Assembly: GCF_000271485.2 (NCBI RefSeq)
Contig: NZ_AKVN02000001.1
Span: forward strand, 4,780,501-4,844,500
Direction: 5' to 3'
Length of the DNA: 64,000 nucleotides
From: Pelosinus fermentans DSM 17108
Lineage (GTDB): Bacteria; Bacillota; Negativicutes; DSM-13327
Shown here: piece after piece, positions 2,584 to 63,582 of the stretch
Numbering within the stretch: the first letter of the stretch is position 1
Layout: the number at the start of each line of letters is the position of its first letter
Made by a program: the position numbers and the translations under genes
Notes under the pieces: model-generated
Databases searched by the model: none
What the model saw: only the letters and a program-made list of their open reading frames with translations
What the model was told of the DNA's origin: nothing

Positions 2584-5424
<2,841 letters not shown>

Positions 5425-5502: not shown

Positions 5503-5554
5503 AGAAAAAAAGCCAAGGCCTCAACCCCTCATTCTGGAAGGGTCGAGGCCTTGG
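5503..5554 (-). terminator. intrinsic terminator (minus strand)
   Basis: Positions 5513-5527 and 5540-5554 form a 15-bp stem with one mismatch. An A-run at 5504-5511 gives T7-8 on the minus strand. It serves the leftward gene ending at 5677. Confidence 0.7.
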
Positions 5555-5676: not shown

Positions 5677-5994
5677 CTAATATCCAGTACCAACAATTTC
5701 ACCAATTATAGATATTCTTGACACAGGATCTTTCCTGGGTTTGATTCCTTGCTCTAACAATTCCTTATCTAATCTTGCATAGGTAATGTCTCTATACTCT
5801 TCAAATGAAATTTCGTGAACTATTTCAGTGATTTTTCCAACCAGCGAAAGATGATATATAGCATCTTCTTTTTGCTTCTTGACCATCACATATTCTTTCC
5901 CATCCAAATCTATAATCAATGTAAGTGTAATATCAGCGTTCTCTATTTCCGCACCCATAATCGTGTCTTTCGTTGTTCTATAGGTTCTATACAT
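5677..5994 (-). CDS. hypothetical protein, 105 aa
   Basis: ATG at 5994 is preceded by GGGGA about ten bases upstream. An internal ATG at 5958 has a poorer site. The protein is acidic and soluble, with a short beta-rich N-terminal half (TLTLIIDLDGKEYVMVKKQ) and a helical middle. No signal peptide or membrane segment is seen, and I do not recognise a family. It has its own terminator at 5503-5554, so it is probably monocistronic. A plus-strand promoter-like sequence overlaps its 5' end. Confidence 0.6.
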   Translation of the reverse strand: MYRTYRTTKDTIMGAEIENADITLTLIIDLDGKEYVMVKKQKEDAIYHLSLVGKITEIVHEISFEEYRDITYARLDKELLEQGIKPRKDPVSRISIIGEIVGTGY

Positions 5995-6121
5995 TTACTG
6001 TATCCCCATTTTGCCAGAAATTGAGTGATGTCCCTCGTAAATGAAACGAATATCTCCCATTCGTTGTGGCGAGGAGGAGTCCCCGCCACACGCTGGTGCA
6101 GTGCTTTTGCCCCAGCTTTTT
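5973..6121 (+). ncRNA. candidate small RNA, three hairpins (unit A)
   Basis: A promoter-like TTGTTC (5973-5978), 17-base spacer and TACTGT (5996-6001) would start RNA near 6008. Three hairpins follow. One is AACGAAT/ATTCGTT at 6045-6065. The second is GTGGCG/CGCCAC at 6066-6089. The third is GCTGG/CCAGC at 6092-6116, with T5 at 6117-6121 as a terminator. There is no convincing reading frame. It matches no RNA family I can name. Confidence 0.4.
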
Positions 6122-6180
6122 ACTTTTCTCTTACCTTGGATTGCTACCAATTTATATCCCCCCATCTTCATCCTGTAGGA

Positions 6181-6216
6181 GGTTTCTTCTATCCGCAGTT
6201 CAGGATAGAAGAAACC
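6181..6216. repeat. 14-bp perfect inverted repeat
   Basis: GGTTTCTTCTATCC at 6181-6194 and its exact complement at 6203-6216 enclose an 8-base loop. No T-run follows on either side. It lies between candidate RNA units A and B. Confidence 0.55.
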
Positions 6217-6243
6217 AGCATACAGTTTGTTTCAGGGGAAATT

Positions 6244-6345
6244 AAAAAAACGCATATGCGAGGTCTTTTCAACCTACACATGCGCTTTGCTTCGTCTTGA
6301 CTGCGCGCAGACGCTAAGCCTCTGCCAAAACTCACAATATTACTA
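6244..6345 (-). ncRNA. candidate minus-strand RNA ending in a strong terminator (unit B)
   Basis: On the minus strand, 6284 to 6251 folds into a stem of about 13 bp with one bulge (CGCATGTGTAGGT against ACCTCGCATATGCG), followed by T7 at 6250-6244. Upstream is a second short stem (CGTCT/AGACG, 6292-6312). No minus-strand gene ends here: the nearest one upstream starts leftward near 7465 and ends at 6777. The terminator therefore probably closes an independent small RNA. The promoter is uncertain, so the 5' end is a guess. Confidence 0.35.
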
Positions 6346-6363: not shown

Positions 6364-6392
6364 TTGTTTTCAAGGAAAGATCACGGTATAAT
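6364..6392 (+). promoter_or_regulatory. sigma-A-type promoter of the 6398 RNA
   Basis: TTGTTT at 6364-6369, a 17-base spacer, and a perfect TATAAT at 6387-6392. A start is expected at G6398, which is the first base of the closing stem of the RNA. Confidence 0.6.
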
Positions 6393-6397
6393 AAATT

Positions 6398-6491
6398 GTC
6401 GTCGTAGACAGCTAGCTGTTACGTGTAGGTGCTCAACCACCTGCTCGTGCCTGGGAGTGTTCCACCACTCTCAGGACACGGCGACTTTTTT
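6398..6491 (+). ncRNA. candidate structured small RNA, about 90 nt (unit C)
   Basis: The first seven predicted bases GTCGTCG (6398-6404) pair with CGGCGAC (6479-6485), immediately followed by T6, closing a four-way structure. Inside are three hairpins. ACAG/CTGT (6408-6419) has a CTAG loop. AGGTG/CACCT (6427-6442) has a CTCAAC loop, extended by ACG/CGT. A 10-bp stem (6450-6459 with 6466-6475) has a TTCCAC loop. Promoter, start, fold and terminator all agree, so an independent RNA gene is likely. It is not tRNA, 6S, SRP or tmRNA by motif, and no downstream gene makes it an obvious riboswitch. Confidence 0.6.
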
Positions 6492-6776
6492 AATTTCCAC
6501 CTATTCCTAATTATATTACTTTTTTTAGGGATTGCAAGCAAAAGTAAAGTGAAAAAATGAAATTTTTGCCTAGTCATACCCCTATTCATTTATAACTTCC
6601 CCTCTCACCAGCATAACTGGCAATGTCATCAATCTAAGAAAAAAAGAAAGAAAATTCATAAAAGCACTTGACAAGATATCAAAAAAAATGGAGCCTCGAA
6701 TTGATCACTATTTTTAATGCGAGGTGCTTTTTATGAACTCATGCCAAGTTATATCGTCAATTTTACAGGCCACCAA

Positions 6777-63175: not shown

Positions 63176-63257
63176 TGGATAAACAAATGAATACGCTAAA
63201 AGCGTTTTCAGCATCACAATATAAAGAGATCTAAATCATCCCCGTATATTACGAATT

Positions 63258-63426
63258 TGTCTCTGTCCTTTTGCCTGAGAGATTTGTCAGCAATATAATT
63301 GCTGTGTTTCACCTTCGGCGCCCTGTATAAGAGTCTCTCCAGAGTCCCGTCCATTTACGGTTCTACTCGGTGGTCCGAGTGCCTGAGAGTTTTACTCCTT
63401 CGGCGGGCTATTAAGCCACTCTCCCG
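63258..63426 (-). promoter_or_regulatory. tandem glycine riboswitch
   Basis: Two gcvT-type aptamers on the minus strand. The first, about 63426-63370, has GCGGGAGAGTG, GCCGAAGGAGTAAAACTCTC and AGGCA. The second, about 63350-63258, has GGACTCTGGAGAGAC, GCCGAAGGTGAAAC and AATCTCTCAGGCAAAAGGAC. The short linker between them is normal for the cooperative form. The downstream terminator at 63149-63175 is the switch, so glycine should turn the binding-protein gene on. Confidence 0.92.
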
Positions 63427-63582
63427 CAAACTTCATCCGGAAAACATATGTAGTTGTAGCAAGTACATTTGCTGTAAGTATTATTATAAAACAACACATC
63501 AAATAATTCAATAGTAAATAAGTAAGTTTTTTCAGCATCTTTGTCTTTTTATTCTATTCTGGCTGAACATATAAAACAAAAT

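Follow-up and report, generated by a model that had tools for sequence, protein, structure and literature searches.

A dispersed family of chromosomal small RNAs antisense to small-protein leaders, with the features of a transcription attenuator

Introduction

Between positions 6364 and 6491 of the DNA analysed here, an earlier note described a complete small-RNA gene belonging to no known family: a TTGTTT-17-TATAAT promoter, a start at G6398, seven terminal base pairs closing in front of a T6 tract, and three internal hairpins. What does such an RNA do, and does it act alone? We followed up this locus in the window (the whole 64,000-nucleotide stretch of Pelosinus fermentans DSM 17108) and compared it with related copies across Negativicutes and beyond.

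Results

A structured small RNA with its own promoter and terminator

The small-RNA promoter spans 6364-6392 (+), with the -35 element TTGTTT at 6364-6369, a 17-nt spacer and the -10 element TATAAT at 6387-6392. A simple promoter scan missed it because the -35 element agrees with the consensus at only three of six positions. The CTTGT of the -35 region is almost invariant across copies, and 147 of 149 have TATAAT without a mismatch, 5-7 nt 5′ of the first stem base. The small RNA, which occupies 6398-6491 (+), has an 88-nt body that starts at G6398, folds into three hairpins closed by an 8-bp stem (6398-6405 with 6478-6485), and ends in the T6 at 6486-6491. The promoter and start proposed in the earlier note are correct to the base and the hairpins lie where it placed them, while the closing stem is one pair longer than it claimed. 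Its view that start, fold and terminator agree beyond chance is borne out by the minimum free energy, which at −45.4 kcal/mol lies below that of every one of 200 dinucleotide-shuffled sequences (−26.3 ± 3.4; z = −5.57). The lack of a known family also holds, an Rfam 15 covariance-model search having returned no match at the gathering thresholds and none at E ≤ 10. We searched for a toxin ORF encoded on the small RNA itself and found none that was plausible. Taking the fold statistics together with the covariation and strand energies given below, we regard it as virtually certain that the window holds a real structured RNA.

A dispersed family whose structure is conserved on the plus strand

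The window's genome carries five copies of the small RNA, and eight Pelosinus genomes carry 37. A covariance-model search of the class placed the RNA in 33 of 380 genomes and 17 of 102 genera, with at most 11 matches per genome; a handful of weak hits on the reverse strand are part of these counts. When 299 genomes were sampled from the wider phylum, the window's own genome was the sole carrier. A pattern scan added Sporomusa, Propionispira, Massilibacillus and several Desulfosporosinus. Since Desulfosporosinus falls outside Negativicutes, horizontal transfer of the family is likely. BLAST of the locus against plasmid and phage collections gave no DNA match, and viral contigs held no exact match to the pattern. 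For comparison we extracted 149 copies from Pelosinus (the 37 above), other Negativicutes and Desulfosporosinus.

A lack of compensatory changes among homologues had been named beforehand as grounds for rejecting the RNA, and such changes are present. In a set of 101 more divergent copies, pairing is kept in 98.1% of pair cells, both sides have changed in 12 pairs, and cells with double changes number 164 versus 50 in shuffles; when the structures were slid as a control, only 29-46% of cells paired. Wobble pairs, retained in 94-100% of the small RNAs, become A·C mismatches in the opposite transcript, so that the mirror fold of the leader described below is weaker (−33.3 versus −46.1 kcal/mol), and the plus-strand RNA folds tighter than its complement in 148 of 149 copies. 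The conserved structure is thus on the plus strand, and the small RNA is real and previously unlisted.

A predicted opposing promoter ahead of small-protein genes

On the minus strand, a promoter for a leader and mRNA (TTGCAA-16-TATAAT, 6510-6537) sits just past the small-RNA terminator, as in the other intact copies. A stricter pattern, CTTGCAW-N14-20-TANNNT, matches this promoter in 119 of 149 copies, and it is visible in most others. The two promoters face each other across ~110 bp. The minus transcript comprises, in order, the complement of the small RNA (6398-6485, the antisense target), an intrinsic terminator and one or more small-protein genes, an arrangement that is constant across Negativicutes and Desulfosporosinus. 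The plus-strand RNA is therefore very probably antisense to the leader of a small-protein operon. The earlier description of a complete small-RNA gene stands as far as start, fold and terminator are concerned, and was incomplete in picturing it as free-standing; it missed the five copies in the genome, the class-wide family, and the conserved minus-strand promoter, terminator and antiterminator.

Behind the leader, 119 of 149 copies carry at least one of nine recurrent small-protein clusters, among them DUF6809-like proteins, SymE_toxin homologues, a Sporomusa family and the MYRTYRTTKDT family. One DUF6809-like protein scored 85.8 bits against PF20648 while the others fell under the cut-off, and the model of such a protein is alpha-helical (pLDDT 76, pTM 0.43). 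SymE-type genes follow 17 copies, and two representatives scored 43.8 and 49.0 bits against PF08845 (cut-off 29). One protein, searched as its N-terminal 110 residues and then in full as a homologue, matched no family. The controlled small proteins that were searched showed no rep domain, and the locus is chromosomal.

In the window, the first gene, ORF1 (5995-6171, −; 58 aa, MKMGGY...), stops immediately 5′ of the start codon (ATG) of ORF2, to which it is presumably coupled in translation, and shares its N-terminus with proteins of 139-161 aa in other copies. ORF2 (5677-5994, −; 105 aa, MYRTYRTTKDT...) is the presumed controlled gene of the window copy and has 20 homologues behind the same type of leader; it showed no Pfam or NCBIfam match and no SymE_toxin domain, and its AlphaFold model (pLDDT 48) is not interpretable. 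Its similarity to paralogues ends at the last codons (~5733), from where the ORF continues into the adjoining sequence; the left end of the window element (5677-5733) is accordingly rearranged. A terminator at 5513-5554 (−) closes the unit, and a long collagen-like protein with GAT/GDV triplet repeats (2602-5424, +) adjoins the element. Far from it, tandem glycine riboswitch aptamers lie at 63253-63436 (−).

Five copies (L098, L158, L164, L281 and L291) are degenerate, with losses that affect either promoter, a stretch of the small RNA or the terminator of the leader; L158, from Desulfosporosinus lacus, has a HicA-like ORF further downstream, as judged by eye. On a 5396-base contig of Sporomusa ovata (L276), two attenuator copies lie ~4.1 kb apart.

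The leader terminator and a candidate antiterminator

The intrinsic terminator of the leader, a putative attenuator at 6244-6285 (−), precedes the start codon. Its 5′ arm contains GUGUAGG, whose complement CCUACAC lies in hairpin 2 as it appears in the leader. In the window, ACCTACAC (6423-6430, −) would form the 5′ strand of the proposed antiterminator, and GTGTAGGT (6272-6279, −) serves both as the 5′ arm of the terminator and as the predicted 3′ strand of the antiterminator, with a pairing probability of 0.97 in the truncated leader. A scan blind to the motif found a leader-strand intrinsic terminator in 131 copies, 128 of which have GTGTAGG in the hairpin. Across 141 motif-bearing terminators (102 distinct hairpins), a set selected by GTGTAGG itself, none of the seven bases changes, in contrast to the variable stem on either side. 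CCTACAC is present in the antisense region of all copies with a leader terminator except two (L201 and L203), and the distance from the small-RNA complement to GTGTAGG ranges from 46 to 273 nt, most often ~120 or 210-245 nt. The idea that UGU is unpaired in all terminators proved wrong: only the fourth base (U) of GUGUAGG is often unpaired, in 43% of predicted terminators.

When leaders were folded to just past GUGUAGG, before the 3′ arm of the terminator, the antiterminator had a median probability of 0.86, exceeding 0.5 in 100 of 137 truncated leaders and staying below it in 37. Once the terminator was complete, this probability fell to ~0 in equilibrium folding. Because the complete terminator always wins at equilibrium, the switch must be kinetic, as would be expected for such switches. 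In step-wise minimum-free-energy folding, the window leader adopts the antiterminator when 230-242 nt long and has moved to the terminator by 248. In silico, the antisense-target region thus takes part in an antiterminator that is mutually exclusive with the terminator; its segments barely vary, which makes covariation impossible to show for this pairing.

These elements suggest that the plus-strand RNA is probably a cis-encoded countertranscribed RNA that would repress the minus-strand small-protein operon through transcription attenuation. Without the small RNA, CACCUACAC in the nascent leader would pair with GUGUAGGU, the 5′ arm of the terminator, and with this antiterminator formed RNA polymerase would proceed into the ORFs. 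The small RNA, when present, would make a kissing contact with the leader by way of variable loops 2 and 3; the ensuing duplex would occupy CACCUACAC and release GUGUAGGU to fold the terminator, so that covering CACCUACAC would remove the antiterminator, favour termination and halt transcription 5′ of the ORFs.

An RNA antisense to this leader might instead act mainly by RNase III cleavage, a translation block or promoter interference, with the terminator setting only basal read-through. Full complementarity to the leader and the closely facing promoters would suit such modes, as would the precedent of E. coli SymR, which works on mRNA stability and translation rather than attenuation (PMC1891008). 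They leave unexplained, however, why the terminator arm holds an invariant GUGUAGG complement and why the fold switches exactly within the decision window, and they sit poorly with an antisense target that lies more than 200 nt 5′ of the ORFs, distant from any RBS. We therefore consider them unlikely as the main mode of action.

Hypervariable loops

Under transcription attenuation, recognition would fall to two loops. Loop 2 (CTCAAC, 6432-6437, +), the presumed recognition loop, has 100 distinct sequences in 137 copies, and loop 3 (TTCCAC, 6460-6465, +) has 59 in the same number. In close pairs of Pelosinus copies (less than 8% different outside the loops), loop 2 differs at 45% and loop 3 at 42% of sites, versus 5.7% elsewhere, so the loops change ~8 times faster than the rest. 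Averaged over all pairs, loops 2 and 3 reach 0.60 and 0.49, versus 0.23-0.37 for putatively neutral spacers. One Pelosinus copy, L008, is orthologous by its flank (94%) to L009 and L010 and differs from them at four of seven loop-2 columns, against 2% elsewhere.

Among co-resident copies, 385 of 386 pairs differ; the two members of the remaining pair, identical in both loops, are close to the ends of contigs and might represent a single locus. Shuffling copies among genomes revealed no significant extra avoidance of shared loops, because the loops are so diverse overall; diversifying selection on the loops is thus supported by their rate of change, not by the genome-shuffle test. In antisense control systems, specificity is set by loop changes (PMC10724649, PMC3753616), and loop diversity would here keep co-resident copies from silencing each other. 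A YUNR U-turn motif is modestly enriched among distinct loops (18 versus 9.5 ± 2.7, leader loop 3), an enrichment that we keep out of the evidence.

This rate of change also bears on whether the RNA could be a free-standing trans-acting or structural RNA next to which the opposing promoter and ORFs are incidental. Its very stable, covarying fold and its own strong promoter and terminator are what such an RNA would have, but a role in trans should conserve the loops, which are the fastest-changing part, and almost every copy, in whichever genus, comes with the minus promoter, the GTGTAGG terminator and a small ORF. A free-standing RNA is accordingly very unlikely.

Further leader elements and mobility

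The leader that is the presumed target of attenuation holds other conserved parts. GCTnAGCG..CTGCATGCA and CGAAGCA are kept in the stretch that separates the antisense region from the terminator, and a hairpin with a variable loop, GGTTTCTTCTATCC..GGATAGAAGAAACC (6181-6216, −), precedes the first ORF and is retained in many Pelosinus copies. The 5′ end of the leader (AGGTGGAAATTAAAAAA, 6486-6502, −; GGnGGAAATTAAAAA) pairs with a segment just past the leader terminator (a U-tract followed by AATTTCCCC, 6235-6250, −), that is, with the U-tract and AATTTCC. At least 10 contiguous pairs form in 125 of 139 copies (mean 11.6 versus 10.8 with partners shuffled), and compensatory sets occur: AATTAAAA/TTTTAATT, AATTGAAA/TTTCAATT, AATCGAAA/TTTCGATT and GGGAATTTAAA/TTTAAATTCCC. 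This long-range helix can form only in read-through RNA. Candidate roles for it are protection of the mRNA 5′ end, a lock on the ON state, or a terminal repeat at the DNA level.

Extra conserved elements of this kind might suggest that the leader is a riboswitch-like sensor of a metabolite or protein and the plus-strand RNA its by-product. The wobble pairs and fold energies place the structure on the plus strand, though, and that strand's own TATAAT is kept in nearly every copy, which makes a leader sensor highly improbable.

Among the right flanks of the 37 Pelosinus copies, orthology was limited to three groups, and one further flank, that of an intron, was shared; the copies thus mostly occupy different sites. 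An invertible element can be rejected, as the order of parts is identical in every copy examined. L024 and L038, from P. fermentans JBW45, share an identical 1.3-kb right flank that begins ~25 nt past the small-RNA terminator with GTGCGCAC, replaces the -10 of the minus promoter and encodes a product judged by eye to resemble a group II intron maturase/RT; some group II introns insert behind terminators. Multiple copies at mostly non-orthologous sites, with similar GGnGGAAATTAAAAA sequences inverted at both leader ends, recall a dispersed MITE-like repeat, in which the RNA features would serve the mobile element as signals and no host gene would be regulated, but behind the leader stand conserved genes for proteins of several families, the small-RNA stems and promoters are strongly constrained whereas the flanks are not, and no transposase or target duplication was found at the copies, so that we give this reading next to no weight.

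Discussion

Antisense attenuation of a small-protein operon is the reading that we favour. Sequence and comparison show the two promoters, the fold of the small RNA, the leader terminator, the invariant complementary segments, the covarying 5′ helix and the hypervariable loops; from these we infer that the pairings form in the cell and that repression is their effect. The controlled proteins may be toxins in some copies, such as those that carry SymE homologues. A toxin-antitoxin role for at least some copies is somewhat less likely than not, and we put it forward tentatively. About as likely is a broader proposal, in which the family would provide the chromosome with antisense attenuators that are orthogonal by nature, one design serving many unrelated small and partly toxin-like proteins, with loops under diversifying selection so that copies do not silence each other, as in plasmid incompatibility. 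Such a platform might even constitute a toxin-antitoxin class akin to type I, whose antitoxin RNA acts by transcription attenuation.

To our knowledge, transcription attenuation by antisense RNA has been seen mainly in plasmid copy control and in a few single genes. Those who build RNA circuits have remarked on a "dearth of natural transcriptional attenuators" (PMC3753616). A family with well over 100 members on one scaffold, among them ~100 distinct loop-2 sequences, would supply a natural library ready for use. The family would also allow a direct test of how RNA-RNA specificity evolves among paralogues, and it would bring several uncharacterised small-protein families, and SymE-type genes with them, under the control of one antisense switch. 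The open-access literature yielded no description of such a chromosomal family, which is weak evidence of absence.

Several known systems resemble parts of this design. In ColE1/IncK RNAI, the loop sequence sets specificity and a single loop change confers compatibility (PMC10724649); these RNAs govern plasmid replication by other mechanisms, so the likeness is confined to loop specificity. SymE/SymR also has a cis-encoded antisense RNA, and SymE-type genes recur here. SymR, however, spans the 5′ end of the symE mRNA and affects its translation and stability (PMC1891008), whereas the RNA described here lies more than 200 nt 5′ of the ORFs, at an attenuator, with no overlap of RBS or ORF start; the window copy moreover encodes a non-SymE protein. 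Shigella RnaG/icsA combines a kissing complex and an antisense-induced intrinsic terminator with a gene unrelated to replication (PMC5394118). RnaG differs in that it is one RNA of 450 nt, encoded on a virulence plasmid and made from within icsA, and has no dispersed family.

Closest in design are the antisense-RNA attenuators of plasmids pT181 (RNAI/RepC) and pIP501 (antisense RNA/RepR) (PMC8383071, PMC3753616). Here as there, each antisense RNA has its own promoter and is countertranscribed over a 5′ leader, with putative kissing hairpins, a terminator 5′ of the start codon and mutually exclusive leader folds. The plasmid systems control a replication initiator, whereas the present family would control small proteins without a rep domain; it is also chromosomal, with up to ~11 copies per genome, a four-way-junction antisense RNA, and loops diversified among copies. 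On the best reading, the family would work like pT181/pIP501 and RnaG/icsA, yet would not be a member of the plasmid attenuator families, because the gene under its presumed control is no replication initiator.
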